64,000 nt of DNA from Dysgonomonas sp. 25 (GTDB taxonomy: Bacteria; Bacteroidota; Bacteroidia; Bacteroidales; Dysgonomonadaceae), in the NCBI RefSeq assembly GCF_010501075.1, contig NZ_QVMN01000002.1, positions 248,001 to 312,000 of the forward strand, in the 5' to 3' direction. Under the pieces are notes generated by a model. The model had not been told where the DNA came from and made no database searches. It was given only the letters and a program-made list of their open reading frames with translations. This document shows, piece after piece, positions 7,345 through 26,622 of the stretch. Position numbers and translations under genes: made by a program. Within the stretch, counting starts at the first letter, position 1, and each line of letters begins with the position of its first letter.

Positions 7345-9576
7345 TTAAATGGTTGTTGTTATCGTTCTGTTGATAACGTCCAACTGTTGTTCTTTCGTCA
7401 GTTTAATGAAGTTTACGGCATATCCCGAAACGCGGATTGTCAACTGCGGATAGTTCTCAGGATTCTCCATTGCATCTATCAACAAGTCGCGGTTGAACAC
7501 ATTCACGTTCAAATGGTGGCCTGTCTGGTTGAAATATCCGTCCATCAATCCGGCAAGGTTGGCTATCTTTTCGCTGTCGTCTTTACCCAATGTATTCGGG
7601 GTGATAGCGAATGTATATGATATACCGTCGTTGGCATGTTCGAACGGAAGTTTGGCAACCGAAGACAAGGATGCTACCGCACCGCGTGTGTCGCGTCCGT
7701 GCATCGGGTTGGCTCCCGGTGCGAAAGGTGTTCCTCCGCGGCGTCCGTCAGGTGTATTTCCGGTCTTTTTACCATAAACCACGTTAGACGTAATAGTGAG
7801 TACCGATTGCGTAGGGATGGCATTTTTGTACATCTTACGCTTACGGATTTTGTTCATAAACTTCTCAACGATTTGAACCGCAAACTTGTCGGTGTTGTCG
7901 TCGTTGTTTCCGAACGGAATATAGTCTTTTTCGACGATGTAGTCTATTGCGTCGCCGTCTTCGTCTCTCACTACGCGCACTTTTCCGTATTTGATGGCGG
8001 CAAACGAGTCGGCAATAATAGACAGACCCGATACACCGAATGCCTGTGTGCGGACGATGTCTACATCGTGCAAAGCCATTTCTAATGCTTCGTACGAGTA
8101 TTTGTCGTGCATATAGTGAATGATATTCAATGCTTTCACGTATGTTTCGGCTACCCAGTCGAGTGTGCGGTCAAATTTTTCCCATACCTCGTCGAAGTCT
8201 AAATATTCGCCCGAAACTTTTTCTACCCAGTGTTTAGGTAATACCTGAAGTTTCGATTTTTCGTCTTTACCACCATTAATGGTATAAAGCAATGCTTTCG
8301 GTAGGTTTGCCCTTGCGCCGAAGAATTGCATCTGCTGACCGATACGCATAGGCGATACGCAGCAGGCAATACCGTAGTCGTCGCCCAATTGAGGACGCAT
8401 CAAATCGTCGTTCTCGTATTGTAGCGATGAGGTATCTATCGATACTTTAGCGCAATATTTCTTCCAGTTTTCCGGCAAACGGTCGCTCCATAGAACAGTC
8501 AGGTTCGGTTCGGGTGCAGGCCCTAAGTTGTATAGGGTGTGCAACATGCGGTAGCTGTTCTTTGAAACCATCGATTTGCCCTGATTGGTCATACCACCCA
8601 ACGATTCGGTCACCCATACAGGATCGCCCGAGAATAACTGGTCGTACTCCGGTGTGCGAAGGAAGCGGACGATGCGCAGCTTCATCACGAAGTGGTCGAT
8701 AAACTCTTGTGCCTGCTCTTCGGTGATGATACCGTTTTTCAGATCGCGTTCGATATAGATGTCGAGGAATGTTGTCACACGTCCCAAGCTCATTGCCGCA
8801 CCGTTTTGGTCTTTGATAGCTCCCAGATAGGCGAAATATGTCCATTGAATAGCCTCTTGTGCAGATGTTGCAGGCTTAGATATATCGAATCCATAAGCGG
8901 CAGCCATATGCTTCAATGCTTTCAATGCTTCTATCTGCATGCTTAACTCTTCGCGCAGGCGGATTAGTTCGTCTGTCATCACGATAGGGTCGCACTCTTG
9001 AAATCTTTTCTGGCGTTCTTCTATCAGGCGGTCAACTCCATACAAGGCAACGCGGCGATAGTCGCCGATAATACGCCCACGTCCGTAAGCATCAGGCAGA
9101 CCTGTCAAAAGGCCGCTGCTACGGGCACGACGGATACTGTCGGTGTAGGCCGCGAATACGCCTTCGTTGTGTGTACGGCGATATTTAGTAAAGATTTCCT
9201 CTGTCCGCGGATCTATTTCGTAGCCGTATTCGGCAAGGCTTTGCTTCACCATACGAAGTCCACCATTCGGGAAGATAGCTCTTTTCAGCGGTTTGTCGGT
9301 TTGTACGCCGACTATTTTTTCGAGGTTTTTGTCGATATAGCCTGCTCCGTAAGCATCTATCTGAGAAGGGAGAGAAGTTTCGGCATCGTAAACACCTTTA
9401 GCCTTTTCTTCTTTAAACATTTCGCTCAGTTGAGCCCATAATTGCTTTGTTGCTTCGGTAGGACCGGCTAAGAATTCGTCAGAACCTGTATATTCCGTGT
9501 AATTCTCGAGAATAAAGTTATTGACGTCAATTTTTTCCTGCCACTTTGTACCTTTGAAATCTTTATATGCTTCCAT
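7345..9576 (-). CDS. pflB: Formate C-acetyltransferase (pyruvate formate-lyase)
   Basis: Converts pyruvate and CoA to acetyl-CoA and formate under anaerobic conditions. The length, 743 residues, is normal. The catalytic Cys405-Cys406 pair lies in [12 protein letters not shown], and the glycyl-radical Gly718 lies in RVSGYAVNF near the C-terminus. The segment [22 protein letters not shown] is also typical of true PFL rather than glycerol dehydratase-type relatives. It is cytoplasmic. Its partners pflA and focA lie downstream on the same strand, beyond the sulfatase. The start at 9576 is supported by the [13 protein letters not shown] opening. Confidence 0.96.
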
Positions 9577-9926: not shown

Positions 9927-12419
9927 ATGCAAAAGAATTTGATGATTCTGCTATTGGCTTGCATTGCTTTTTGCAGTTGCGACGAGGCAGATGTTTCTAA
10001 AAGTGTGGTAAAGAGCGATCTTCGTCCACCAGCTTACCCTTTAATTACAATTGATCCGTATACCAGCGGATGGTCGTTTACTGATAACCTGTACGATGGT
10101 TCGGTAAGACACTGGACAGGTAAAAAATTCCCATTGATTGGTGCTGTTAAAGTAGACGGAGAAGTTTTCCGCTTTATGGGGACGGAGGATATTCCTTTGG
10201 TAACGGTTGCGCCGACTTCGGAGCAAGGCAACTGGAAAGGCAAATACACAACATCTAAACCGTCAGGCGACTGGATGAAGATGAACTTCAACGATGCGGC
10301 ATGGAAAGAAGCTCCGGCAGCATTCGGTACAACTCACAACGAGCCTACTTCCAAAACGCATTGGGAGCAGGAGTTTATCTGGGTGAGACGTATCATCGAC
10401 ATCAATGAAGACCTGACAGGCAAAAAAGTATATCTCGAGTATTCGCACGACGACGATGCTATTATCTACATCAACGGCATCGAGGTGGTGAATACCGGCA
10501 ATTCTTGCAAGAAGAACGTATTGGTTCCGCTTTCGGATGAAGTTATCGCTTCCTTGAAGCAAGGAAAGAATATCATAGCCGGATATTGCCACAACAGAGG
10601 CGCTAACGGATTGTTAGACTTCGGTCTGGTAAGAGACAAGGAGAACAAGCAAATCCTGAAACAAACGGCTGTGCAGAAGTCGGTAGATGTACAGGCGACG
10701 CAGACACACTACGTGTTTGAGTGTGGAAACGTTAATCTGAACCTGACATTTACTGCGCCATTGTTGATGGATGATTTGAAGTTGACTTCGCGTCCTATCA
10801 ATTACCTTTCTTATGACGTATCATCGAACGACGGCAAAGAGCACGAAGTGGAACTTTACTTCGAAGCTGCTCCGGCATGGGCTTTGGACAAGGATTTGCA
10901 AATGGCTCAAAGCGAAGGCTTCGAGGATGGAAACCTTGTGTTCGTGAAAACGGGTAGCACAGAGCAGAATATCCTTGTTAAGTTCGGTGACAATGTACGC
11001 ATCGACTGGGGCTATTTCTATATGGCTGCCGATAAATCGAACTCTATCTGCAATGTAGGCGACAGCGAAGTGCTGAGGAATGCCTTTGTCAACGGTTTGA
11101 AAGAGGCGTCGGCTGAGAAGCGTGAAAGCGCAACGGACAAACTGGCTATTACTACTACGGTAGGCAAGGTGAATGCGACTGTCAGCGGTAAGTTGATGAT
11201 AGGATACGACGACATCTATTCTATTCAGTACTTTGGCGAAAATCTGCGTCCATATTGGAATGCAGATGGGAATGACAACATTATGAACCAGTTCCGCAAA
11301 GCAGATGATGAGTACAAAGACCTGATGAATAAATGCTATGCTTTCGACAAAGGCCTGATGGAAACAGCAACTGCTGCCGGAGGTAAAGAATATGCCGAGT
11401 TGTGTGCCTTGGCTTACCGCCAGTCTATTTCGGCACATAAGATAGTACAAGCTCCGAACGGAGATATACTCTTCTTGTCGAAAGAGAACTTCAGCAATGG
11501 TTCTATCGGTACGGTGGATGTTACTTACCCGTCGGCGCCATTGTTCCTCTACTATAACCCCGAACTGGCAAAAGGACTGCTCAATCATATCTTCTATTAC
11601 AGCGAAAGCGGAAAGTGGACTAAACCTTTCCCATCGCATGATGTAGGTACTTACCCATTGGCTAACGGTCAGACTTATGGTGGCGATATGCCGGTGGAGG
11701 AAGCCGGTAATATGCTCGTGCTGACGGCTGCTATTGCTGCAGTGGAAGGGAATGCCAAGTATGCCGAAAAGCACTGGGATGTATTGACGACATGGACTGA
11801 CTATCTGGCAGAGCACGGCCTCGATCCTGATAACCAATTGTGTACCGACGACTTTGCCGGACACTTTGCGCACAATGTCAACCTTTCGGTGAAAGCCATT
11901 ATGGGGGTTGCTTCTTATGGTTATCTGGCTGATATGCTGGGCAAAAAGGATGTTGCCGAGAAATACACTGCCAAAGCCAGAGAGATGGCTCAGGAGTGGA
12001 TGAAAATGGCTGACGATGGCGATCACTATCGCCTGACATTCGACAAGCCGGGCACTTGGAGCCAGAAGTATAATCTGGTATGGGATAAGCTATTGAAAAC
12101 AAATATCTTCCCGAAAGAAGTGGCGCAAAAAGAAATAGCTTACTACCTCACTAAGCAGAACAAATACGGTTTGCCGTTGGATAACCGCGAAACATATACC
12201 AAAACCGACTGGATTATGTGGACAGCTACTTTGGCTGACGATCAGGCTACATTCCAGACCTTTATTGCGCCGGTATACAACTTTATGAACGAAACGACGG
12301 ATCGTGTGCCGATGTCGGACTGGGTATGGACGGAAACGCCAACTCAGCGCGGATTCCAGGCGCGTTCGGTTGTTGGTGGTTATTACATCAAAATGCTTGA
12401 AGAGAAATTAGATAAATAA
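9927..12419 (+). CDS. Glutaminase-A-like lipoprotein (DUF4965/DUF1793 type)
   Basis: An 830-residue exported protein with a lipobox-like AFCSC (Cys18). The order is RPPAYPLITIDPYTSGWSF opening (from about 33), an inserted jelly-roll like that of GH2 sugar-binding domains (about 95-235), the central DUF4965 region, and a C-terminal alpha/alpha six-hairpin domain with DDFAGHFAHNVNLSVKA (about 630) and WTETPTQRGFQARSVVGG near the end. Fungal relatives were described as glutaminase A, but in Bacteroidales these proteins usually sit among glycan-degrading genes, so the real activity is unclear. The inserted jelly-roll favours a carbohydrate-linked role. It is monocistronic, with its own promoter and a terminator at 12445-12479. 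Confidence 0.8.
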   Translation: MQKNLMILLLACIAFCSCDEADVSKSVVKSDLRPPAYPLITIDPYTSGWSFTDNLYDGSVRHWTGKKFPLIGAVKVDGEVFRFMGTEDIPLVTVAPTSEQGNWKGKYTTSKPSGDWMKMNFNDAAWKEAPAAFGTTHNEPTSKTHWEQEFIWVRRIIDINEDLTGKKVYLEYSHDDDAIIYINGIEVVNTGNSCKKNVLVPLSDEVIASLKQGKNIIAGYCHNRGANGLLDFGLVRDKENKQILKQTAVQKSVDVQATQTHYVFECGNVNLNLTFTAPLLMDDLKLTSRPINYLSYDVSSNDGKEHEVELYFEAAPAWALDKDLQMAQSEGFEDGNLVFVKTGSTEQNILVKFGDNVRIDWGYFYMAADKSNSICNVGDSEVLRNAFVNGLKEASAEKRESATDKLAITTTVGKVNATVSGKLMIGYDDIYSIQYFGENLRPYWNADGNDNIMNQFRKADDEYKDLMNKCYAFDKGLMETATAAGGKEYAELCALAYRQSISAHKIVQAPNGDILFLSKENFSNGSIGTVDVTYPSAPLFLYYNPELAKGLLNHIFYYSESGKWTKPFPSHDVGTYPLANGQTYGGDMPVEEAGNMLVLTAAIAAVEGNAKYAEKHWDVLTTWTDYLAEHGLDPDNQLCTDDFAGHFAHNVNLSVKAIMGVASYGYLADMLGKKDVAEKYTAKAREMAQEWMKMADDGDHYRLTFDKPGTWSQKYNLVWDKLLKTNIFPKEVAQKEIAYYLTKQNKYGLPLDNRETYTKTDWIMWTATLADDQATFQTFIAPVYNFMNETTDRVPMSDWVWTETPTQRGFQARSVVGGYYIKMLEEKLDK

Positions 12420-12920: not shown

Positions 12921-15458
12921 ATGATTTGCAAGATGCCAGTTATGCTTCGATATTTGATGTTTACCATTCTTTTTTGTTCCGTATCGCCGTTGCTTTATTC
13001 GCAGGGACTCAGGATAAAAGGGAATGACCACCTGATTGATGAGCGCACTTCCTATTCGGTATTCGAAACCAAGCATCCTGTTTTTTCTGATAAACTGGAC
13101 ATTTCTTTCGAGATGGCGATGCCTGTCCCTTCCACTGTGGGGTATATCTTCAGAATAAAAAACGAAGAAGATAAGTATATATACAATCTTCTGATAAATG
13201 ATCAGGGAAGCTCTATCCGCTTCAAATTCAGCCACGAAGGGTATGATGTAAAAATAGATGCTTTGCCCGATCCGCAGAAAATACAAGAACAGCAGTGGAT
13301 TAAGGTCTACCTCTCTTTCGACCTGAAAAAAGACTCCCTGATGCTGCAAATCAATGATGACCGTTACTACACCGGCGATCTCAAGTTGAAAGATAAGTGG
13401 AAACCGCAGATTCTTTTCGGGCGCAGCGATTATGTTATCGACATACCGCCTTTTATCATGAGAAACTTAGTCATAAGCGACAACAAACAGCGCTATCATT
13501 TCCCTTTAGATGAGAGTTCCGGCGAATCGGTACATAATGACAAGAAAGAAGTGATAGGGAATGTAACCAACCCCGAATGGATAATAAACGATGCATACCA
13601 TTGGAAAATGGTGGATTCTTACTCTTCGAGAACGGTATCGGGAACCAATTTTAACCCGGAAACGCAGGAAATATATTATTTCAATACAGACTCTATTGTC
13701 TTTCATAATGTGCGCACAGGCACATCCCACACAATGCAATATGCCAATGATTGCCCGATGACGTTGCGGTTGGGGACGAACTTTATTGATTCTGCCCGAA
13801 AGCGGCTGTATGTATATGAAGTTTTCGATTTGCTCGCCGGAAATGTTTCGATGGCATACCTTGACCTCGAGACATTGGAGTGGACGAAGCAAAGTTCGGA
13901 AATACTTCCTACCCAGTTGCATCATCATGGCAACTATTTCGACGCTGAAAACCGTCGCTATATAATCTTCGGCGGGTTTGGGAATCTGATGTATAATAAG
14001 TATTTCTTCAGCTATAATCTGGATCGGGATAAATGGGAAACGCTGGAACTGACCGGCGATACTATCAGCCCCCGTTATTTCACGTCTATGGGTTATGACC
14101 GCTATGCCGATTGTCTGTACGTTTTCGGTGGAATGGGGAATAACTCGGGAGATCATACAGTAGGACGCCGCTACTTTTACGACCTTTACAAAATCGATTT
14201 GCGGGTTAATCATATAACAAAGCTATGGGAAATACCGTGGCGGGACGAAAACGTAGTGCCTGTCCGTAATTTGGTTGTGGCGGACGATTCTACGTTCTAT
14301 ACGCTTTGCTATCCCGAACATTTTTCTAATTCGGAACTGCGTTTGTACCGCTTTTCGATAAAAGACGGAGCACATCAGGTTGTTGGCGACTCTGTGCCTA
14401 TCCGCTCCGAGAAGATAACGACTAATGCCAATCTCTACTATAATGAGGCATTCAGTACCCTTTTTGATATACAGCAGGAGTTCGAAGATGACGATATTGC
14501 CTCCACAACGAGGGTTAACAGGCTCTTATTTCCGCCTGTCACCTTAGAGCAATTGAGCGTTTATTCCGCTTCGAACGGGCAGGATAACAGGATGCTTATC
14601 GGAATAATTCTTGCCGTAGCAGCAATATTATCCTTTTTCGGACTGCTCATCCTCAGACGCAAGCGGAAGAAGCAACAAACCGTAGTGCAGGAAGGTTATC
14701 CTGTTAAAGAAAGCGGGAAGCCGGTTCGGTTAGATACGACAACCCGTGCCAATGCTGTTTATCTATTTGGAGAATTTGCCGTATACGATCGCTACAATAA
14801 AGATATTACATACCTGTTCAGTGCAAAGTTGAAGCAGGCTTTCCTCCTGATTTTGCAATATTCGTTCGACAATGGAATTTCTTCGCAGCAATTCAGCGAG
14901 TTTTTATGGCCTGATAAATCATCCGAAAAGGATAAGCTCAAAAATCTGAGAGGGGTGACACTTAATCACTTGCGTAAGATATTGAAAGAGCTGGACGATA
15001 TAAACCTTGTACACGAAAATGGTATGTTCAAGCTCCTTTTCAAGGGAAGCAGCTATTGCGATTATGTTTGTTTGTACGAAATAATGTCATCGGTGAACGA
15101 GAATAAAGACTGGGACGAGGTCGCACGGATTATATCCCGCGGCAAATTCCTTCAAACCTTTGACGAACCGATGTTCGACCACTTCAGGGATATTGTCGAC
15201 AGGAAAATAGATCCGTTCTTGTCGAACCGTATCAAAGCAGAATTTGAAACCGAGAATTACCCGATGGTTATCGTCTTGGTCGAAGCCTTCTTCAATATAG
15301 ACCCTATCAATGAAGATGCTTTGCACTACTTACTTATTTCCTTGTCCAAAACGGGACGCGAAGATCTGGCGAAGAATTACTATGCCAGATTCATATCGGA
15401 ATATAAGGTGATGATAGGCGAAGATTATCCGAGATCCTATTCCGACATCCTTTCGTAA
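12921..15458 (+). CDS. Membrane-spanning regulator: laminin-G-like/Kelch-like sensor with SARP-type output
   Basis: A one-piece sensor and transcription factor of 845 residues. An N-terminal signal or anchor segment (about 9-27) precedes a laminin-G/concanavalin-like domain (about 30-190). A beta-propeller-like region (about 225-540) carries Kelch-style FGG motifs at IIFGGFGN and YVFGGMGN. One membrane helix spans about 557-579, followed by a basic RRKRKKQQ stop-transfer. The cytoplasmic part has a winged-helix DNA-binding domain (about 612-710, containing FLWPDKSSE and NLRGVTLNHLRKILKEL) and a bacterial transcriptional activator domain (about 715-845), the SARP layout. No kinase or phosphoacceptor is present. 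A start at the third ATG (12942) is possible. The GH92 gene follows, preceded by tandem TTAACC repeats that may be its target. Confidence 0.82.
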   Translation: MICKMPVMLRYLMFTILFCSVSPLLYSQGLRIKGNDHLIDERTSYSVFETKHPVFSDKLDISFEMAMPVPSTVGYIFRIKNEEDKYIYNLLINDQGSSIRFKFSHEGYDVKIDALPDPQKIQEQQWIKVYLSFDLKKDSLMLQINDDRYYTGDLKLKDKWKPQILFGRSDYVIDIPPFIMRNLVISDNKQRYHFPLDESSGESVHNDKKEVIGNVTNPEWIINDAYHWKMVDSYSSRTVSGTNFNPETQEIYYFNTDSIVFHNVRTGTSHTMQYANDCPMTLRLGTNFIDSARKRLYVYEVFDLLAGNVSMAYLDLETLEWTKQSSEILPTQLHHHGNYFDAENRRYIIFGGFGNLMYNKYFFSYNLDRDKWETLELTGDTISPRYFTSMGYDRYADCLYVFGGMGNNSGDHTVGRRYFYDLYKIDLRVNHITKLWEIPWRDENVVPVRNLVVADDSTFYTLCYPEHFSNSELRLYRFSIKDGAHQVVGDSVPIRSEKITTNANLYYNEAFSTLFDIQQEFEDDDIASTTRVNRLLFPPVTLEQLSVYSASNGQDNRMLIGIILAVAAILSFFGLLILRRKRKKQQTVVQEGYPVKESGKPVRLDTTTRANAVYLFGEFAVYDRYNKDITYLFSAKLKQAFLLILQYSFDNGISSQQFSEFLWPDKSSEKDKLKNLRGVTLNHLRKILKELDDINLVHENGMFKLLFKGSSYCDYVCLYEIMSSVNENKDWDEVARIISRGKFLQTFDEPMFDHFRDIVDRKIDPFLSNRIKAEFETENYPMVIVLVEAFFNIDPINEDALHYLLISLSKTGREDLAKNYYARFISEYKVMIGEDYPRSYSDILS

Positions 15459-15555
15459 AATCTCTTTCGCTTTATGGGGAATACCTGCAAATTCTTTATC
15501 CTTTGATAGGGAAAAATGCTGTGGGTTAATAAAAAAGTTTCTTCGGATTCCTTTT

Positions 15556-15598
15556 TTAATCTCTTTTTAACCTCTTTCTTAACCCTTTTGTTAACCTC
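15556..15598 (+). promoter_or_regulatory. Four tandem TTAAYC repeats, 11-12 bp period (candidate SARP operator)
   Basis: TTAATC at 15556, then TTAACC at 15567, 15579 and 15591, each inside a TTAAYCYY context. The steps are 11, 12 and 12 bases, so the copies lie on one face of the helix. A near -7 element, TTCATTTG, follows at 15606-15613. Known SARP proteins bind tandem direct repeats with about 11-bp spacing just upstream of a promoter; that this one binds here is inference. Confidence 0.55.
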
Positions 15599-15670
15599 TT
15601 TCTCATTCATTTGTATTGTTTATAATAAGCGCAAAAAAAGATACTAATACCAAATCAAATTACATCAATC

Positions 15671-17950
15671 ATGCGAAAATTATCAATTCTATTGATTCTC
15701 TCCCTGCTTTTCTCGGTAGCTAAAGCAAGTGACGAGACAACTCCTGTCGATTATGTTAGCATTCTTGTCGGTACACAGAGCAAGCACTCTCTGTCTACAG
15801 GTAATACCTATCCGGCGATAGCCCTCCCGTGGGGAATGAATTTCTGGACACCCCAGACCGGAAAAATAGGCGACGGATGGGCATATACTTATGATTCCGA
15901 TAAGATAAGAGGCTTCAAGCAAACGCATCAGCCAAGTCCGTGGATGAATGATTACGGCCAGTTTGCTATCATGCCTACAACAGGAAAAAGAATATTTGAT
16001 CAGGACGAAAGGGCGAGCTGGTTTTCGCATAAAGCAGAAATCGCTAAGCCTTACTACTATAAAGTTTATCTGGCCGATCACGATGTGGTAACAGAAATTG
16101 CCCCGACTGAACGTGCGGCTATGTTTCGCTTCACTTTCCCCGATAATGAATCGTCTTCGGTTGTTATCGATGCATTCGATAATGGCTCGTATGTAAAGGT
16201 TATTCCATCGGAGAACAAGATAATAGGCTATACAACTAAAAATAACGGTGGTGTACCGGATAACTTCAAGAATTATTTTGTAATTGTCTTTGACAAACCG
16301 TTTACATACACGGCTGCGGTGGCAGATAACAGCATCAAGACAACAGCGCTGGAAGCGGATGCAAACCATGCAGGAGCTATTATAGGCTTTTCTACCAAAA
16401 AGGGTGAAATCGTTCATGCACGCGTAGCTTCTTCTTTCATCAGCTACGAACAAGCAGAACTGAACCTGAAAGAATTGGGTAATTCCTCTTTCGACGAAGT
16501 GGCAGCGAAAGGCAAAGATACATGGAATGAAGTATTAGGTAAAATTACCGTTGAAGATAATAATATAGATAACCTGCGTACTTTCTATTCTTGCCTTTAT
16601 CGCTCGGTACTTTTCCCTCGCAGCTTCTACGAGATTGATGCCAAAGGAGAGGTAGTACACTACAGCCCTTACAACGGACAGGTATTACCCGGCTATATGT
16701 TTACCGATACAGGATTCTGGGACACATTCCGTTGTCTTTTCCCATTCCTCAATCTGGTATATCCGTCGATGAATGTAAAAATGCAGGAAGGCTTGGTAAA
16801 TACATACAAGGAGAGCGGATTCCTGCCTGAATGGGCGAGCCCGGGACATCGTGGCTGCATGGTTGGAAACAACTCCGCTTCGGTAGTAGCAGATGCCTAT
16901 CTCAAAGGCCTTCGTGGCTATGATGCCGAAACATTGTGGAAAGCTGTCGTTCATGGAGCGAATGCTGTACACCCTGAGGTTTCGTCTACCGGACGTTTAG
17001 GATATGACTATTACAACAAACTGGGTTATGTACCTTACAACGTAGGCATCCACGAGAATGCTGCCCGTACGCTCGAATATGCGTATGACGACTGGTGTAT
17101 CTATCAGTTCGGTAAGAAACTGGGCAAGAAGAAAAAAGAAATAGACATATATGCTAAGCGCGCGATGAATTACAAAAACCTCTTTGACCCTGAGCATAAA
17201 TTGATGCGAGGTAAAAACGAAGACGGTAAATTCCAGTCGCCGTTCAACCCGTTGAAGTGGGGTGATGCCTTCACCGAAGGAAATAGCTGGCACTACACTT
17301 GGTCGGTATTCCACGATCCGCAAGGCTTAATCGACCTCATGGGCGGAAAAGACGGCTTCAACCAGATGATGGATTCGGTATTTAATGTGCCGCCATTGTT
17401 CGACGATAGCTACTATGGCTTTGTTATTCACGAAATCAGAGAGATGCAGATAATGAATATGGGTAACTATGCTCATGGCAACCAGCCTATTCAGCACATG
17501 ATATATTTGTATAACTATTCCGGCCAACCTTGGAAAGCGCAATACTGGACACGCGAAGTGATGGATAAACTCTATACTCCTGCTCCTGATGGCTATTGCG
17601 GCGACGAGGACAACGGGCAGACATCGGCATGGTATGTTTTCTCGGCTATGGGATTCTATCCTGTTTGTCCGGGAACGGATGAATATATCTTAAGTTCTCC
17701 ACTATTCAAGTCGGTTACGCTGAATCTGGAAAACGGTAAACAGGTGAAAATAACGGCGCCGAATAATGCCAAATCCAACCGCTATGTGAACTCGATGACT
17801 GTCAACGGAGCATCGCATACCAAAAATTATGTGACGCATGATGTGTTGATGAACGGCGCAAAAATCAATTTCGATATGTCGCCTACTCCGAACAAGAACA
17901 GAGGAACGAGCGAAAGCGATCTACCATACTCTTTCTCGAGAGAAAAATAG
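15671..17950 (+). CDS. GH92 alpha-mannosidase, exported
   Basis: A calcium-dependent inverting exo-alpha-mannosidase of 759 residues with a cleavable signal peptide (about 1-20), expected in the periplasm and likely to act on mannan or N-glycan mannose. The family N-terminal domain (about 25-290) contains the GNTYPAIALPWGMNFWTPQTG region. The (alpha/alpha)6 domain contains TEGNSWHYTW with Glu536 as the candidate general acid, and GYCGDEDNGQTSAWYVFSAMG with Asp645 and Asp647 as candidate base residues. His587-Glu588 in VIHEIREM match the pair seen in some alpha-1,2-specific members, which hints at but does not prove linkage. It lies downstream of the SARP-output regulator and its candidate operator. 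Confidence 0.95.
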   Translation: MRKLSILLILSLLFSVAKASDETTPVDYVSILVGTQSKHSLSTGNTYPAIALPWGMNFWTPQTGKIGDGWAYTYDSDKIRGFKQTHQPSPWMNDYGQFAIMPTTGKRIFDQDERASWFSHKAEIAKPYYYKVYLADHDVVTEIAPTERAAMFRFTFPDNESSSVVIDAFDNGSYVKVIPSENKIIGYTTKNNGGVPDNFKNYFVIVFDKPFTYTAAVADNSIKTTALEADANHAGAIIGFSTKKGEIVHARVASSFISYEQAELNLKELGNSSFDEVAAKGKDTWNEVLGKITVEDNNIDNLRTFYSCLYRSVLFPRSFYEIDAKGEVVHYSPYNGQVLPGYMFTDTGFWDTFRCLFPFLNLVYPSMNVKMQEGLVNTYKESGFLPEWASPGHRGCMVGNNSASVVADAYLKGLRGYDAETLWKAVVHGANAVHPEVSSTGRLGYDYYNKLGYVPYNVGIHENAARTLEYAYDDWCIYQFGKKLGKKKKEIDIYAKRAMNYKNLFDPEHKLMRGKNEDGKFQSPFNPLKWGDAFTEGNSWHYTWSVFHDPQGLIDLMGGKDGFNQMMDSVFNVPPLFDDSYYGFVIHEIREMQIMNMGNYAHGNQPIQHMIYLYNYSGQPWKAQYWTREVMDKLYTPAPDGYCGDEDNGQTSAWYVFSAMGFYPVCPGTDEYILSSPLFKSVTLNLENGKQVKITAPNNAKSNRYVNSMTVNGASHTKNYVTHDVLMNGAKINFDMSPTPNKNRGTSESDLPYSFSREK

Positions 17951-18020
17951 ATTTTAAGATATTCCCAATATAAACATTCACTTTTTAATTCCGATTGCTA
18001 ACTATCTAATTGGAAGTAAT

Positions 18021-18068
18021 ATGAAAAAAAGATCAGGCCTCCTATTCACTTTTTATCCGGAGGTCTGA
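18021..18068 (+). other. 15-residue ORF overlapping a hairpin between GH92 and the TIM-barrel gene
   Basis: An ATG-to-TGA reading frame for MKKRSGLLFTFYPEV lies in the 308-base gap. Its codons cover both arms of the hairpin at 18032-18069. It may be a leader peptide or chance; there is no independent support for translation. Confidence 0.2.
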
Positions 18069-18069
18069 T
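18032..18069. terminator. Hairpin with 11-bp stem downstream of GH92
   Basis: ATCAGGCCTCC pairs with GGAGGTCTGAT (one G-T wobble) around a 16-base loop. An A-run precedes it, so a strong T-run follows only on the minus strand. On the plus strand it may act as a weak terminator or an mRNA 3'-end stabiliser for the GH92 transcript. Confidence 0.5.
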
Positions 18070-18106
18070 TGAAATCTATACCTGACTAAAAAAAACAATT
18101 ATTTGA

Positions 18107-18124
18107 TTAACCTTTTTTTTGACC
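18107..18124 (+). promoter_or_regulatory. TTAACC/TTGACC pair, 12 bp apart
   Basis: TTAACC at 18107 and TTGACC at 18119, the same word and step as upstream of GH92. It is distal to the second pair at 18170. Confidence 0.35.
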
Positions 18125-18169
18125 TATGATGAATCTTTGAGGGACACATCAATCAGCCCTATCGACCTT

Positions 18170-18187
18170 TTAACCTCGGGCATAACC
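18170..18187 (+). promoter_or_regulatory. TTAACC/ATAACC pair, 12 bp apart (candidate SARP operator)
   Basis: TTAACC at 18170 and ATAACC at 18182. The last copy starts 77 bases before the ATG at 18259; in front of GH92 the last copy starts 80 bases before the ATG. The shared word, step and position suggest one regulator for both genes. Confidence 0.45.
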
Positions 18188-18258: not shown

Positions 18259-20463
18259 ATGAAGAATATTATCAGTATTATTCCTGTATTATTCTTGTTT
18301 ACAACCTTTAGCTGTAAGAATGGAACAAATAGTGCAGAATCGGAAAATGAGAAAACCGTATTTCAAACGTCACGCGAATGGCGTCCGACAATCGACAACC
18401 GCGCAGATGTTGCTATTGTATATGGAGTAGGGGGCAACCCTTCGGATAAATCGGAGCGTATACCATTTGAAGAACGGGTAAAATCCTGGCGCGAGAGAGG
18501 ATATACTGTCCATTTTATGACGGGTATCGCTTGGGGCGAATATCAGGACTACTTCACCGGAGAATGGGATGGAAAACCGCATCTGGATGAGGGACAGGTA
18601 CAGCTCAGTGGAGATACTATCTGGCACGGGCATATGGTTCCTTACATTGTTCCTTCTGATAATTTTCTTAAATATCTGAAAGAGAGACACGTCAAGCGTG
18701 TTGTCGATGCAGGTATCGATGCCATTTTTATGGAAGAACCCGAATTCTGGGCACGCGCAGGATATAGCGAAGCATTCAAAAAGGAATGGAAAGAATATTA
18801 CGGCTTCGACTGGCGTCCGCAACACGAATCGCCGGAGAATACCTATCTGGCTAATAAACTGAAATACCATCTCTACTACAAAGCCATTAAAGATGTCTTT
18901 ACTTATGCCAAGGAATACGGAAAGAGCAAGGGCATGAATGTCCGTTGCTATGTTCCTACCCATTCGCTTGTCAATTATTCGCAATGGCAGATTGTGAGCC
19001 CCGAAGCGAGTTTGGCTTCGTTGGATTGCGTCGATGGCTATATTGCACAGGTATGGACGGGAACTTCCCGCGAACCGAACTATTACAACGGAATTAGAAA
19101 AGAACGTGTTTTCGAAAATGCTTTCTTGGAATACGGCTCAATGGAGTCGATGACTGCTCCTACAGGACGCAAAATGTTCTTCCTCACCGACCCAATAGAA
19201 GACTGGCCCCGCGACTGGGTAGACTATAAAAGAAATTATGAAGCGACCTTTACCGCGCAACTATTGTATCCGAATATTGCCGACTACGAAGTGATGCCTT
19301 GGCCTGAGCGCATCTATGAAGGATTGTACCGCACCAGTGCCGATAGCGATGTGAAAGATCGCATACCGAAGCATTATTCGACTCAGATGCAGGTAATGAT
19401 AAATACGCTGAACAGCATGCCGCTTTCGGATAACAAAGTATCGGGAAGTAGCGGTATCAGTGTTTTGATGGCCAATTCGCTGATGTTCCAGCGATTCCCT
19501 ACGCATGCAAGTTACGAAGATCCTCAACTTTCCAACTTTTACGGACAAGCGCTACCGTTTCTTAAACGGGGAATTCCGGTAAGTACGACGCATATAGAAA
19601 ATGTGTCGTATGCCGGAACTTTCAAAAACACTAAAATCCTCTTGATGACCTATTCCAATATGAAACCTTCTTCGGCGGAAGAACACGAACATATAGCCAA
19701 TTGGGTGAAAAACGGAGGAATCCTTGTATATAGCGGTTCGGATACCGATCCGTTCCAGACGGTGCAGGAATGGTGGAATACAAAAGGCAACAACTATAAA
19801 GCGCCGGCAGATCACTTATTCGAGAAAATGAATATCGCGGCGTCGCCCACAGAAGGGGAATATAGTTATGGCAGTGGAACAGTCTACGTTATCCGCACCG
19901 ATCCTAAAGACTTTGTAATGAAGGAAGATTTGGATCAAAAACTGGTAGATGTTGTGAAATCTTTGTACGAAGAGAAAGCAGGAGCCGGAGAACTTGAATT
20001 TAAGAACAACTTCTATCTGGAAAGAGGCCCGTACCACTTGATCGCTGTAATGGACGAAAGCGTTAGCGAAGAACCCTATATAGCGAAAGGATTGTATATA
20101 GACCTCTTCAACCCCGAGCTTCCTGTGCTTAGGCAGAAGATTGTTCACCCCGGTCAACAGGCGCTTCTGTATAATGTAGAATCTGTTGCCGATAAGAGCG
20201 AACCACAGGTTTTAGCTTCTGCATGTAGGATATACGATGAAGAAATCAAAGGAAAATCATATTCCTTTGTTGCCAAAAGTCCTATCGATACAAAGAATTA
20301 TATGCGCATATTGCTGCCATCTAAACCATCGGATTGTGAGATGAAGAAAGCGGATGGAACAGTGTTGTGTGATACAGAATGTCTCTGGGATGAGTTCAGC
20401 AAAACATGCCTGTTCGTCTTCGATAACGATCCGGATGGCGTATATGTATCTTTAAAGTGGTAA
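18259..20463 (+). CDS. Unassigned lipoprotein, TIM-barrel glycosidase-like with a Rossmann-like middle domain
   Basis: A 734-residue exported lipoprotein (lipobox TTFSCK, Cys19). Residues about 45-330 read like a TIM barrel: VAIVYGVGGNP, then RERGYTVHFMTG, then GIDAIFMEEPEFWARAGYSEAFK with Glu159, Glu160 and Glu162 at a strand end, then FLEYGSMESM with Glu291 and Glu296. The spacing of these acidic clusters fits the acid/base and nucleophile of a retaining clan GH-A enzyme. Residues about 385-560 look like the Rossmann/GATase-like domain seen in GH42-type enzymes (KILLMTYSNMKPSSAEEHEHIANWVKNGG). GH164 beta-mannosidase is a family to test, but I cannot confirm it. It lies behind GH92 with the same repeats upstream, which supports a mannose-glycan role. 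Confidence 0.6.
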   Translation: MKNIISIIPVLFLFTTFSCKNGTNSAESENEKTVFQTSREWRPTIDNRADVAIVYGVGGNPSDKSERIPFEERVKSWRERGYTVHFMTGIAWGEYQDYFTGEWDGKPHLDEGQVQLSGDTIWHGHMVPYIVPSDNFLKYLKERHVKRVVDAGIDAIFMEEPEFWARAGYSEAFKKEWKEYYGFDWRPQHESPENTYLANKLKYHLYYKAIKDVFTYAKEYGKSKGMNVRCYVPTHSLVNYSQWQIVSPEASLASLDCVDGYIAQVWTGTSREPNYYNGIRKERVFENAFLEYGSMESMTAPTGRKMFFLTDPIEDWPRDWVDYKRNYEATFTAQLLYPNIADYEVMPWPERIYEGLYRTSADSDVKDRIPKHYSTQMQVMINTLNSMPLSDNKVSGSSGISVLMANSLMFQRFPTHASYEDPQLSNFYGQALPFLKRGIPVSTTHIENVSYAGTFKNTKILLMTYSNMKPSSAEEHEHIANWVKNGGILVYSGSDTDPFQTVQEWWNTKGNNYKAPADHLFEKMNIAASPTEGEYSYGSGTVYVIRTDPKDFVMKEDLDQKLVDVVKSLYEEKAGAGELEFKNNFYLERGPYHLIAVMDESVSEEPYIAKGLYIDLFNPELPVLRQKIVHPGQQALLYNVESVADKSEPQVLASACRIYDEEIKGKSYSFVAKSPIDTKNYMRILLPSKPSDCEMKKADGTVLCDTECLWDEFSKTCLFVFDNDPDGVYVSLKW

Positions 20464-22707: not shown

Positions 22708-25700
22708 ATGTATAAAAATTTACTATACATAATTACTCTCCTTTTGTTTAGCCCCCATTTGTGGGGTCAAGCCTCAAATTATCAAATATTTACAAATATC
22801 ATTCCCAGTACCGAAGCCTCTACTATCAATTGCTTTGCGCAAGATACTCAAGGGCTTATCTGGATTGGTACTAACAGAGGGCTGTTTAGCTATGACGGAT
22901 ATTCCGCCCAGCAACATTTTACTTTTGGCGAGAAGAACAATACACTTATACACTCCATGTTAGTGTATGAGGATTCTAAATTGCTGTTGGCTACTGATAA
23001 TGGCTTGCTGATATATGATTATAAGACCGACCGGTACGAAGAGGATGGTACGGATTTTCCTTCAGATGTAAGGGCTATAGCCAAGCGTGACAATATCCTT
23101 TGGATTGGCTCTCTCAACGGGTTATTCAGATATAATTTAGAGACAAAAGAGATAGAGCATATCCGTAAGGGTATCTATTCAGGCCTTCCGCATAATACTA
23201 TCTATTCCATAGTGACAACGCTGGATAATGCGCTATATATCGGGACATACAATGGGCTTTGTAAGTATATCCCCGAATCTGATAGCTTTGAAATAATCGC
23301 CCTGCCTGTTGACAATAAAAGGAGCAACCAATTTATAAACTCATTGCTGGAGGACACAAATACCCGGGATATATGGATAGGCACAGAAGGTGCATTATAC
23401 AAGTATTCACCCGATAAAAACGAGATAGAAGAAATCAATTTCTTCCACAACAACTCCATAAAATCACTGGCTATCGACGGCGACAATAATTTAGTGTTGG
23501 CAACGGATAATGGCTTGTATACCTATAATCACGCCGATAAGAGTACTGCCCATTTTGTGCACGACTCCCGAAACAGCCGATCGCTGAGTAATAATATTAT
23601 TTGGGGAGCATTCGCTGATAAGGAAAAAAACATCTGGCTGGGTACCGATTATGGTATCTCTTTGTCGCGCAACAATAAGTCTTTACAATCGATACCTATC
23701 TCACAAGTTACCGGCATTGGCGATGGCAACCGATTCCATTCCATTTTTAAAGATTCGCGAGGTAACTATTGGTTTGGAGGGACAAACGGCCTGATATTTT
23801 CCCCATCGTTAACCGAACGTACCGATAATGCAATCTGGTACAGGATGGGCGATTCGAAATATCCCATATCGCACAACCGCATCAGGCACATATATGAAGA
23901 TAAGGACAACAACTTGTGGGTAGCCACAGATGGTAGTATCAACAGATATGATTATCAGCGAAAACAATTTGTGCATTACACGATAGTTGATAGTACGAAT
24001 ACGCTGAACTCGAACTGGGCATATCATATCTTCGAAGACGATAAAGGCCAGTTGTGGATAGCTACCTGCCTTGGTGGTATATTCGTAGTCAATAGAGATC
24101 GGCTGTTAAATTCGTCAGGCACTTATGTCGCCGAGATGAATTATTCTACCGGGAATGGGTTGTCGGGCAATTTTATCAACCAGATTATACCCGATCATTC
24201 GGGTAATGTATGGGTATTGCTCTACAATAACGGAATCAATAAAATAAACACGAATACCCACACTGTTGAAAAATTTCCAATAAAACAAGGGACAACTGAT
24301 GAGAATCCCAACTATGTGATATGCGATGACGAAGGCTTCCTTTGGGGTGGCTATCGTGGCGGAATAGTGCGCATAAATACCAAGACTGATAGTTCTGATT
24401 TCATAAAGCTCGACAATTTCAGCAGCAGTGAAATCCTTTCATTGATTGAGGTCGGTAATAATATATGGATTTCAACGACGGAAGGCCTTTGGGTACTGGA
24501 TAAGAAAACAAATGGCGTAAAAAGGCTGAATATCACGAATAAATCTTTTACATGCTTTTTCTTCGATAAAGACGTAAACAAAATATACATGGGCGGAGTC
24601 GATGAGTTCACCGTTTTGTCGCCGGATATACAATATGAGAATTTTACAGGCTCACAACTCGTACTCACCGCTCTTTACATTAACGATAACTTATTCCAGC
24701 CAGCGACCGCTCAAGAGGGTAATGGCATCCGCTATCTGGATGAAATAGAACTGAACCACAATCAAAATAACTTAGCTTTCGAATTCTCGGATCTAATCTA
24801 TTCGGAAGAGGAGGCGGGGAAATTTGTTTATAAACTGGAAGGTGTTGACACAGATTGGAATATAATCAGACAAAATATTAATCGTATAAACTATACGAAT
24901 CTGGAATATGGAAACTACAAGCTGATAATAAGCCGTCTCGATTCTTCGGGGAAACCATCGGATATTTCACGTACCTTTTTCATACGCATAAATCCGCCGT
25001 GGTATTATACGTTATGGGCAAGATGTATCTATGCAATCTTGCTGTTAGCTCTTATCGTGTGGATTATCAATTTCTTCCGTGTACGGCACAACTTGAGGAT
25101 TGAACGGATAGAGAAGGAAAAGACTGTTGAACTGACAAATCTCAAGATTGATTTCTTCACCAATGTTTCGCACGAATTTAAGACACCTCTGAGCCTTATT
25201 ATAGCGCCAGTCAGCAAATTGCTATTGGAGACAAAAGACGCTTCGAAGAAACGGCTATTGGAAAATGTGCAGCATAATGCCCTGAAATTAAATTCTCTTA
25301 TACGGCAAGTCCTGGAGTTTAACCGGACTGACAGCGTATCCAATACCAGCCTGATGTTGTCGAGAGTAGAGTTTGTCGAATTTGCCGGAAGTCTCTATTC
25401 TATTTATCAGGAAGGATATAAAGATAAGAACCTGAACTTTTCTTTCCATACTAACCACGAGAGGATATTCGTAAATATTGATGTACTGAAAATAGAGTCG
25501 GTATTGAATAACCTGCTATCCAATGCCTGCAAATACACGAAAGAAGGTGGCCGTATAGATTTTGTGCTAAATTATAAAGATGATGAAAAGGTGCTGGACA
25601 TTATCCTTTCCGATCAGGGAATCGGTATACCCGCAAATGAAATGCCTTATATCTTCGAGCGTTATTACCAGACCACTAAAACCGCAGGAAACAAAGAAGG

Positions 25701-26622
25701 TACAGGTATCGGGCTCTATCTGGCCAAAACTTATACGGAACAGCATGAGGGCAAAATACATATAGCGTCGGAGGAAGATAAAGGAACCACTATCACCATC
25801 TCTTTGCCTGTTTCTGTAGAAGAGAACGATATTAGCGATGAGCAAGTGGAGACTTCTGCCGATGACAGCAGTCCGTTAATATTGATTGTGGATGATAACC
25901 CCGAGATTGCCGATTTTATCGGTCAGACATTATCCCGCAGATACAGATGTATGATTGCCCACAACGGCAAAATGGGATTGGAGATGGCAACAGGCAATAG
26001 TCCCGATCTGATAGTGGCCGATATAATGATGCCTGTAATGGACGGCCTCGAGATGAGCCGGAGAATCAGACAAAATATGCCGACATCGACTATTCCTATC
26101 ATTTTGCTGACCGCCAAAGATGACAAAAGCACGGAGTTGGAAAGCATAAACCTGAATGTGGATGCATTTATCCCCAAACCATTTGACCCGGAACTATTGC
26201 TTTCGCGTGTAAACCAGCTGCTGAAAAGCAAACAGCAGATAGAAACGAAGTTAAGGATAGAATCGATAGATACCCCTAAAGCAATAGAAGCCACTTCTCC
26301 GGACGAGAGGCTTCTTTCCCAGATTATTCAGATAATTGAGAATAAGATAGCCGATCCCGATCTGAATGTAAACTCGCTTAGTACGATTTCGGGGATTGGT
26401 TCCAAACAAATTTATCGTAAAATAAAGCAACTTACTGGTTTGTCTCCCGTGGAATATATAAGATCGATACGGTTGAAAAAGGCAGCTATGCTCCTGTCGC
26501 AAAATAAATTTACGGTAGCCGAAGTCATGTATATGGTTGGTTTCTCTAATCACTCATATTTTTCCAAATGTTTCCAGTCGGAGTTTGGTAAAACACCAAG
26601 ACAATTTATGGAAAATACTTAA
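22708..26622 (+). CDS. Hybrid two-component system regulator of the galactan locus (HTCS1)
   Basis: A 1304-residue membrane sensor, kinase and transcription factor in one chain. After a signal segment (1-20) come two seven-bladed-propeller-type halves of repeated motifs such as GLIWIGTNRGLFSYD and NIWLGTDYGIS (about 30-680), then a Y_Y_Y domain (about 690-755) and a membrane helix (about 766-790). The kinase core has His822 in VSHEFKTPL and ATP-binding GTGIGLYLAKTY. The receiver domain has Asp1105 in VADIMMPVMDG. An AraC-type HTH ends the protein (about 1205-1304). HTCS proteins bind an oligosaccharide in the periplasm and activate the linked PUL. The galactan enzymes downstream suggest a beta-galacto-oligosaccharide signal. 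Confidence 0.95.
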   Translation: MYKNLLYIITLLLFSPHLWGQASNYQIFTNIIPSTEASTINCFAQDTQGLIWIGTNRGLFSYDGYSAQQHFTFGEKNNTLIHSMLVYEDSKLLLATDNGLLIYDYKTDRYEEDGTDFPSDVRAIAKRDNILWIGSLNGLFRYNLETKEIEHIRKGIYSGLPHNTIYSIVTTLDNALYIGTYNGLCKYIPESDSFEIIALPVDNKRSNQFINSLLEDTNTRDIWIGTEGALYKYSPDKNEIEEINFFHNNSIKSLAIDGDNNLVLATDNGLYTYNHADKSTAHFVHDSRNSRSLSNNIIWGAFADKEKNIWLGTDYGISLSRNNKSLQSIPISQVTGIGDGNRFHSIFKDSRGNYWFGGTNGLIFSPSLTERTDNAIWYRMGDSKYPISHNRIRHIYEDKDNNLWVATDGSINRYDYQRKQFVHYTIVDSTNTLNSNWAYHIFEDDKGQLWIATCLGGIFVVNRDRLLNSSGTYVAEMNYSTGNGLSGNFINQIIPDHSGNVWVLLYNNGINKINTNTHTVEKFPIKQGTTDENPNYVICDDEGFLWGGYRGGIVRINTKTDSSDFIKLDNFSSSEILSLIEVGNNIWISTTEGLWVLDKKTNGVKRLNITNKSFTCFFFDKDVNKIYMGGVDEFTVLSPDIQYENFTGSQLVLTALYINDNLFQPATAQEGNGIRYLDEIELNHNQNNLAFEFSDLIYSEEEAGKFVYKLEGVDTDWNIIRQNINRINYTNLEYGNYKLIISRLDSSGKPSDISRTFFIRINPPWYYTLWARCIYAILLLALIVWIINFFRVRHNLRIERIEKEKTVELTNLKIDFFTNVSHEFKTPLSLIIAPVSKLLLETKDASKKRLLENVQHNALKLNSLIRQVLEFNRTDSVSNTSLMLSRVEFVEFAGSLYSIYQEGYKDKNLNFSFHTNHERIFVNIDVLKIESVLNNLLSNACKYTKEGGRIDFVLNYKDDEKVLDIILSDQGIGIPANEMPYIFERYYQTTKTAGNKEGTGIGLYLAKTYTEQHEGKIHIASEEDKGTTITISLPVSVEENDISDEQVETSADDSSPLILIVDDNPEIADFIGQTLSRRYRCMIAHNGKMGLEMATGNSPDLIVADIMMPVMDGLEMSRRIRQNMPTSTIPIILLTAKDDKSTELESINLNVDAFIPKPFDPELLLSRVNQLLKSKQQIETKLRIESIDTPKAIEATSPDERLLSQIIQIIENKIADPDLNVNSLSTISGIGSKQIYRKIKQLTGLSPVEYIRSIRLKKAAMLLSQNKFTVAEVMYMVGFSNHSYFSKCFQSEFGKTPRQFMENT

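Follow-up and report, generated by a model that had tools for sequence, protein, structure and literature searches.

The 64,000-nucleotide window analysed here (Dysgonomonas sp. 25, contig NZ_QVMN01000002.1, positions 248,001 to 312,000) contains a gene for a large, putatively membrane-bound regulator, which is followed by an array of short direct repeats and then by a gene of the GH92 alpha-mannosidase family (Table 1). A sequence-only reading of this DNA had proposed that these repeats, together with further pairs downstream, are bound by the output domain of the regulator, taken to be of the Streptomyces antibiotic regulatory protein (SARP) type, and that they control two genes, the GH92 gene and a gene starting at 18259. 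We confirm the four TTAAYC units before the GH92 gene, which are separated by steps of 11, 12 and 12 bp, with the start of the fourth lying 80 bp ahead of the GH92 start codon. On the evidence of sequence comparison these repeats look like a conserved operator-promoter, and across relatives the array is tied to the regulator and mostly to alpha-mannan genes.

Table 1. Features of the regulator-GH92 locus and of the proposed second target, in window coordinates.
Feature	Position	Strand	Basis or remark
Regulator gene, 845 aa	12921..15458	+	Translation, Pfam, AlphaFold2
Predicted extracytoplasmic sensor, about residues 28-536	13002..14528	+	AlphaFold2 strands, Foldseek kelch propellers
Predicted transmembrane helix, residues 554-582	14580..14666	+	AlphaFold2; hydrophobic by eye in 31 aligned rows
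SARP output domain (by predicted fold), residues 611-845	14751..15455	+	AlphaFold2 and Foldseek
Inverted TTAACC (GGTTAA on +)	15524..15529	-	32 bp upstream of unit 1; canonical offset would be 22-23 bp
Imperfect inverted half-site GGATTC	15545..15550	-	21-22 bp upstream of the 15567 unit, near the canonical place; weak
Putative operator unit 1, TTAATC	15556..15561	+	Sequence reading and family pattern scan
Putative operator unit 2, TTAACC	15567..15572	+	Window and genome scans, matrix
Putative operator unit 3, TTAACC	15579..15584	+	Window and genome scans, matrix
Putative operator unit 4, TTAACC	15591..15596	+	Window and genome scans, matrix
Probable -7 promoter box TTCATTTG	15606..15613	+	Starts 9 nt past unit 4, as in relatives
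GH92 alpha-mannosidase family gene, 759 aa	15671..17950	+	Pfam Glyco_hydro_92, E 1.2e-175
Weak pair TTAACC/TTGACC, doubtful site	18107..18124	+	Not in orthologs
Weak pair TTAACC/ATAACC, doubtful site	18170..18187	+	Not in orthologs
Gene proposed as second target, 734 aa, lipoprotein-like	18259..20463	+	No Pfam family above cut-off

The regulator has a Kelch match in Pfam (E 2.4e-15), and no histidine kinase, receiver or AraC domain was found in it by Pfam at E 0.1. In the full-length AlphaFold2 model, built with 31 sequences, a signal-peptide-like helix is followed by a beta domain, a propeller, one transmembrane helix, a linker of poor prediction quality and, at the C terminus, a compact domain, with kelch propellers taking the top ranks when the whole model is searched with Foldseek. 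The first beta domain, which has no family hit, would by our own reading of the model be LamG-like, and the signal peptide and transmembrane helix suggest that the sensor lies outside the membrane and the C-terminal domain in the cytoplasm. When a profile of the output domain was searched against the sequences of the PDB it returned mostly TPR and designed proteins and no SARP entry, and a comparison of folds was therefore needed. Modelled alone, the C-terminal domain reaches an AlphaFold2 pLDDT (predicted local distance difference test) of 92, and all six Foldseek matches with E < 0.001 are chains of EmbR or AfsR that align over nearly the whole length, the best being EmbR of Mycobacterium tuberculosis (PDB 2fez, 2ff4; E 2.6e-06). 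EmbR is not known to have a membrane part. Because of these matches we conclude that the C-terminal domain of the regulator is, by predicted fold, a SARP output with an OmpR-like winged helix and a BTAD, as the sequence-only reading had supposed. The predicted layout of sensor, transmembrane helix (residues 554-582) and SARP domain with no kinase is that of a transmembrane one-component regulator.

Bacteroidetes-type promoters have a -7 box with the consensus TAnnTTTG and a -33 word with the consensus TTTG. The genome of Dysgonomonas sp. 25 (3.74 Mb in 58 contigs) contains TTAACCN{5,6}TTAACC, the exact pair, only at the GH92 promoter, as two overlapping matches; the reversed pattern gave four matches. 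Composite searches that joined two units to the -7 consensus returned 3 matches against 11 for the reversed control in one form, and 9, two of them the GH92 array, against 9 in another, with the GH92 array at one mismatch and all other matches in this genome at three. A matrix built from 22 other loci, the window itself being excluded, gave the GH92 array a score of 29.6 and the next-best place in the window 10.5 (three units). An origin by chance, or from T-rich low-complexity DNA, could draw on the T/C-rich composition of this stretch and on the commonness of single TTAACC words, even though these are rarer in the window than expected (23 against a mean of 36), and pairs with a 12-bp step at one mismatch are not rare there (4 against 2.9 expected, with 30 of 100 shuffles reaching 4). 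However, none of 300 single-base shuffles reached the score of the GH92 array (the shuffles behind our matrix, offset and unbiased-repeat statistics preserve base content only), relatives preserve the units and their steps while the spacers between them differ, and reversed-pattern controls gave nothing in 20 genomes of relatives. Together with the phylum-wide nulls given below, these controls in our view rule out chance or low complexity, to which we assign a negligible probability.

Full-length relatives of the regulator within the family, at 33-50% identity, occupy 26 loci including that of the window. A search of 101 family genomes for the strict triple TAAYCN{6,7}TAAYCN{6,7}TAAYC, tallied by hand, places it no more than about 730 bp from 23 of the 26 close regulators, the array being conserved together with the regulator; the three loci that miss it (G017, G010:C49 and G093) still hold two good units there. 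Among genomes of the genus, 12 of the 13 with a close ortholog of the regulator have a triple match, the exception being G017, against 3 of the 12 without one; each of these three has a single match, two of which fall in frames that are stop-free for 46 and 34 codons and one within a frame of 515 codons.

Beyond the family we used the best 80 of 106 relatives from a scan by regulator alignment, a set that partly shares genomes with the family set and spans Dysgonomonas, Bacteroides, Alistipes, Prevotella, Maribellus, Draconibacterium, Sphingobacterium, Mucilaginibacter, Cytophagales and others. Scored by the family-trained matrix within 700 bp of the regulator, 51 of the 80 loci reach 15 or more and 46 reach 20 or more, where the denominator includes ten loci with less than 700 bp on one side. 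In the within-gene null 0 of 80 reach 15, and in the shuffle null one reaches 15 and none 20. A scan of whole loci, which has no null of its own, adds arrays above 20 in L177 and L178 and a weak one in L237 (16.6, some 2.6 kb away) that is not counted. The direction of the 51 arrays is one-sided: 41 diverge from the regulator, 10 lie downstream of it and point onward, and none points toward it. Autoregulation through this operator was rejected on the same count and on the score of 3.0 for the region upstream of the regulator in the window. The strict pattern TAAYCN{5,6}TTAAYCN{5,6}TTAAYC, run on 20 genomes chosen among those of the 51 array-positive loci, matches at the regulator in 15 of them and at three other places, with no match for its reversed control, and the remaining five regulator arrays deviate from the strict word. 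An off-register version with a first step of 12-13 bp, usable as a further control, matches three times in the same genomes. In the 6 Mb of Bacteroides xylanisolvens XB1A (regulator locus L226) the regulator array is the sole strict match.

In the family (22 loci and our own) the steps within the arrays are 11 and 12 bp in 18 loci, 11 and 11 in three, and 12 and 12 in two; by our own reading the three 11,11 loci have a degenerate fourth unit 12 bp further on, which would again make the last step 12. The TTTG of the -7 box lies 13 or 14 nt past the last unit in 19 of the 23 (including L048, which has TTTG at both 0 and 14), at 25 nt in the three that have a degenerate unit, and is missing from L040. 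The 51 phylum arrays, found by a scan that permitted only steps of 11 and 12, have steps 11,12 in 39 cases, 11,11 in 8 and 12,12 in 4. At 48 distinct sites TTTG occurs 13 or 14 nt past the last unit in 26, where 0.48 would be expected, and at 25 nt in 5; the distance from the last unit to the TAnnTTTG box is 9-10 nt. A further element, GRTTA on the opposite strand, precedes the first unit by 22 or 23 nt in 34 of the 48 sites and by 34 nt in another 5, against 0.18 per offset in shuffles. As this inverted half-site also accompanies arrays found downstream of the regulator (L206, L216, L235, L236 and L240), we assign it to the operator rather than to the promoter of the regulator.

In a tree of the 80 loci and our own, 19 of 27 array-less loci fall in one clade made up almost entirely of Cytophagales, and the array-less label changes 7 times on the tree against 22.9 times in shuffles. 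The tree was made by a quick method; the long branch of L241, whose row is partly out of frame (12 stops or N, and a length not divisible by three), is an artefact, and rows L168, L170 and L222 contain 2, 2 and 1 stops or N. The recognition-helix region of the clade is nearly unchanged, its group consensus differing in 8% of columns against 15-27% in other domains, and we therefore searched whole genomes for arrays elsewhere, in 14 genomes of the 19-locus clade (those of L173, L176, L183, L197 and L207 were left out). The triple-repeat pattern matched 13 times, in 11 of these genomes, against 2 matches for the reversed control; one of the 13 (L248) is a simple tandem repeat. Ten of the 14 genomes hold an array with steps 11,12 placed 94-122 nt before a gene, in all ten cases a gene for a CarboxypepD_reg protein (Pfam), the commonest target type of the phylum set, and 9 of these 10 arrays are apparently on the contig of the regulator, 12-17 kb from it. 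The inverted GRTTA is present at 22-23 nt in all 12 Cytophagales arrays once L248 is omitted. A loss of DNA specificity as the cause of the missing Cytophagales arrays is not favoured, given the almost unchanged recognition-helix region and the arrays found elsewhere in 10 of 14 genomes. One genome, that of Algoriphagus terrigena (G109, regulator in L194), contains three canonical arrays (L245, L254 and L255).

The genes next to the arrays vary in type. In the family the adjacent gene encodes GH92 (our own locus, L033 and L044-L046), GH125 (L039, L042), GH76 (L049), a TonB receptor (L040) or a lipoprotein-like CarboxypepD_reg protein (L031, L032, L050, L053), the last being followed in L050 by GH76 and a TonB receptor. 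In the phylum set 49 of the 51 arrays could be assigned a target (L242, with a 69-aa fragment, and L214, with no open reading frame found, were dropped), giving 9 GH92, 7 GH76, 3 GH125, 5 TonB plug and 26 CarboxypepD_reg; this last count probably includes TonB receptors, which carry the domain in L040 and L050. The commonest target, the lipoprotein-like CarboxypepD_reg protein, is about 600 aa long (L050:10885-12699, L031:6179-7996, L053:3881-5686 and relatives). Three family genomes have a second array upstream of a GH92 gene, at a distance of about 18-20 kb from the regulator.

It could be argued that the array is bound by another factor serving alpha-mannan genes and that the SARP regulator is merely its neighbour, since most targets fit alpha-mannan use and might be followed by some unrelated mannan regulator, and since in 10 of the 14 Cytophagales genomes the array stands away from the SARP gene. 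This we regard as improbable. While the target changes between GH92, GH125, GH76, TonB receptor and CarboxypepD_reg protein, the array stays beside the regulator; GH92 copies of the genus have an array in 0 of 12 cases where a close ortholog of the regulator is missing against 4 of 17 where it is present (a comparison of 30 loci, L124 omitted, from among many more GH92 matches); and SARP operators show a similar repeat step and a similar spacing to the promoter box (PMC10936776).

The reading we prefer, inferred from the comparisons above, is that the repeats are very probably the operator of the upstream membrane SARP switch, which would activate the GH92 gene. The regulator would act as a one-piece membrane switch, the outer LamG-like and Kelch propeller part sensing a sugar derived from alpha-mannan; that the ligand is a piece of alpha-mannan is suggested by the targets. 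Three or four SARP domains would bind side by side on TTAACC units one helical turn apart, on one face of the helix, where they would abut the -7 box and replace the -33 element, recruiting RNA polymerase so that the alpha-mannosidase gene is transcribed. The same regulator and operator might instead serve repression, with arrays at the -7 box blocking RNA polymerase until the sugar releases them, and the end of the last unit 9-10 nt from the box is a place that repression could use too. This possibility seems unlikely to us, as the -33 word is mostly missing (TTTG lies 12-26 nt upstream of the -7 box in only 2 of 28 sites with a -7 TTTG, a count made with no shuffle control), which would be expected of a promoter that needs help, and as the SARPs of the cited papers are activators, with the AfsR dimer overlapping the -35 element at afsS (PMC10936776).

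Several observations weigh against assigning the array to an activating SARP switch. Within 700 bp of the regulator 29 of the 80 loci have no array in the matrix scan, and 26-27 of 80 have none within 3 kb in the whole-locus scan; an unbiased repeat scan of the 29, which recovered known arrays only in part, found nothing above its null except a run of N in L207. Four of the 14 Cytophagales genomes have no canonical array, three of these having no match of any kind, and TTTG lies at 14-15 nt in only 4 of 12 Cytophagales arrays. At 15 of the 48 distinct sites there is no TTTG within 40 nt. In Dysgonomonas sp. 25 itself the array marks one gene, the -7 box is one base off TAnnTTTG and the inverted half-site is displaced from its usual offset. 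The BTAD match of the regulator (E 0.016) is below the curated cut-off of Pfam, and the Foldseek matches to EmbR and AfsR have TM-scores of only about 0.5 with a root-mean-square deviation of 6-7. Finally, a few arrays stand before genes that do not serve alpha-mannan use: the gene after the array encodes an AraC-type regulator in L254 and a GMC oxidoreductase in L255, and in L098 (G005), in a genome with a second GH92 array, a TAACC/TTAATC array far from the regulator precedes a GH32 gene. This L098 array may be a different use of the word or the site of another SARP.

The case for the gene at 18259 is much weaker than that for GH92. The two pairs upstream of it (18107/18119 and 18170/18182) are present, while the shared word is not fully kept, the second unit of each being off (TTGACC, ATAACC). 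A regulon with two targets, GH92 and this lipoprotein-like gene, could appeal to the matrix, by which the region before 18259 is second-best in the window with three units (10.5, matched by 1 of 300 shuffles) and scores 16.6 with two (0 of 300 shuffles; next place 12.4), and to the orthologs of the gene, which lie near the regulator in several relatives. However, an array was found in 0 of 16 promoters of these orthologs (best score 5.5 with three units and 11.0 with two; fragments L146, L147, L149 and L150 omitted), and besides the imperfect units TTTG lies 11 or 22 nt from the pairs, against the usual 13-14. We therefore find a two-target regulon doubtful; by sequence the 18259 gene is an unproven member and probably not a target. 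Of the regulator, operator and two targets first proposed, the GH92 part is strongly supported, by conservation, direction, -7 register, SARP fold and the Cytophagales search, and the 18259 part is not supported.

The likeness to the AfsR/SARP regulators of Streptomyces extends from protein to DNA. Both have a winged helix and a BTAD fold, predicted in the present case (PMC10936776, PMC5930380), and both use direct repeats one turn apart, the last of which is 8 bp from the -10 element there and 9-10 nt from the -7 box here; a three-unit SARP operator is also known, that of PimR (PMC10936776, PMC5930380). Measured against the SARP pattern of direct repeats 11 or 22 bp apart, the 11-bp step agrees and the 12-bp step departs, and measured against a last repeat about 8 bp from -10 the 9-10 nt agrees, with the promoter type differing and the remaining sites not fitting. 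This suggests a SARP promoter architecture common to two distant phyla. Unlike AfsR/SARP, the present regulator is predicted to be membrane-anchored with a Kelch/LamG-like sensor and occurs in Bacteroidota, its operator has the word TTAACC, a last step of mostly 12 bp and an extra inverted half-site 22-23 bp upstream, and its targets are glycan-use genes, not antibiotic genes. EmbR, in contrast, carries a C-terminal FHA domain (PMC10936776).

Among Bacteroidota, the closest parallels in role are the hybrid two-component system (HTCS) and SusR-like regulators of polysaccharide utilization loci (PULs) in Bacteroides, which are likewise glycan sensors adjoining the polysaccharide genes they control, with direct-repeat sites, and which include three HTCS for alpha-mannan (PMC3878776). 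Their sites differ from the array described here, HTCS having two at an average of 21 bp and SusR 67/77 bp between centres, and unlike our regulator HTCS combine an AraC-type output with a kinase; neither Kelch nor SARP is mentioned in the accessible portion of that account (PMC3878776). The tethering of a DNA-binding domain to the inner membrane would be shared with ToxR-type transmembrane transcription regulators (PMC10269533). The main text of a survey of transmembrane regulators, in its accessible sections, leaves BTAD, SARP and Kelch unmentioned (PMC10269533), as does that of a regulatory atlas of B. thetaiotaomicron (PMC12596196). A description of such SARP regulators in Bacteroidota was not found in the open-licence literature, of which our survey covered a part, and may exist.

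It seems likely, if less firmly so than our reading of the GH92 operator, that these proteins form an additional class of regulators of glycan loci in Bacteroidota, namely membrane-tethered SARP activators with a Kelch/LamG-like sensor and an operator that is nearly unique in the searched genomes and serves as a marker of the alpha-mannan locus, at least in Bacteroidales, Sphingobacteriales and Cytophagales. In this class the operator would consist of an inverted half-site and, about 22 bp further on, three to four TTAACC units with steps of 11-12 bp, the last of them 9-10 nt from the -7 box. Such a readable DNA address would allow targets of this regulator type to be predicted from sequence, as was done for Cytophagales. 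It would also link a Kelch/LamG-like membrane sensor to the use of alpha-mannan, which is a nutrient from fungal and host glycans, and it makes the action of a membrane-tethered SARP domain at the -7 box promoter of Bacteroidota testable.

Distant paralogs of the regulator (about 22-29% identity) adjoin intergenic TTAA-core repeats at 11-12 bp (L095-L097, L027, L028, L030, L036 and L037), such as TAATC-7-TAATC-7-TAATC in L095, upstream of a gene for a TonB receptor; those in L027-L037 were seen with no null, and L026 showed none. They suggest that the family may hold many regulator-word pairs with different words.

The window also contains genes outside this system. HTCS with AraC output are encoded at 22708-26622 and 41898-45869, and the SusC-like genes near them (29416 and 46246) and a SusD gene (32385) make these ordinary glycan loci. 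A sulfatase gene adjoins that of a pyruvate formate lyase-like glycyl radical enzyme (5663-7264 and 7345-9576, minus strand). The glutaminase-A six-hairpin protein (DUF4964/DUF5127) encoded at 9927-12419 is linked to the regulator in some relatives and has no array of its own here, an operator before this GtaA-like gene being rejected at a matrix score of 0.3.

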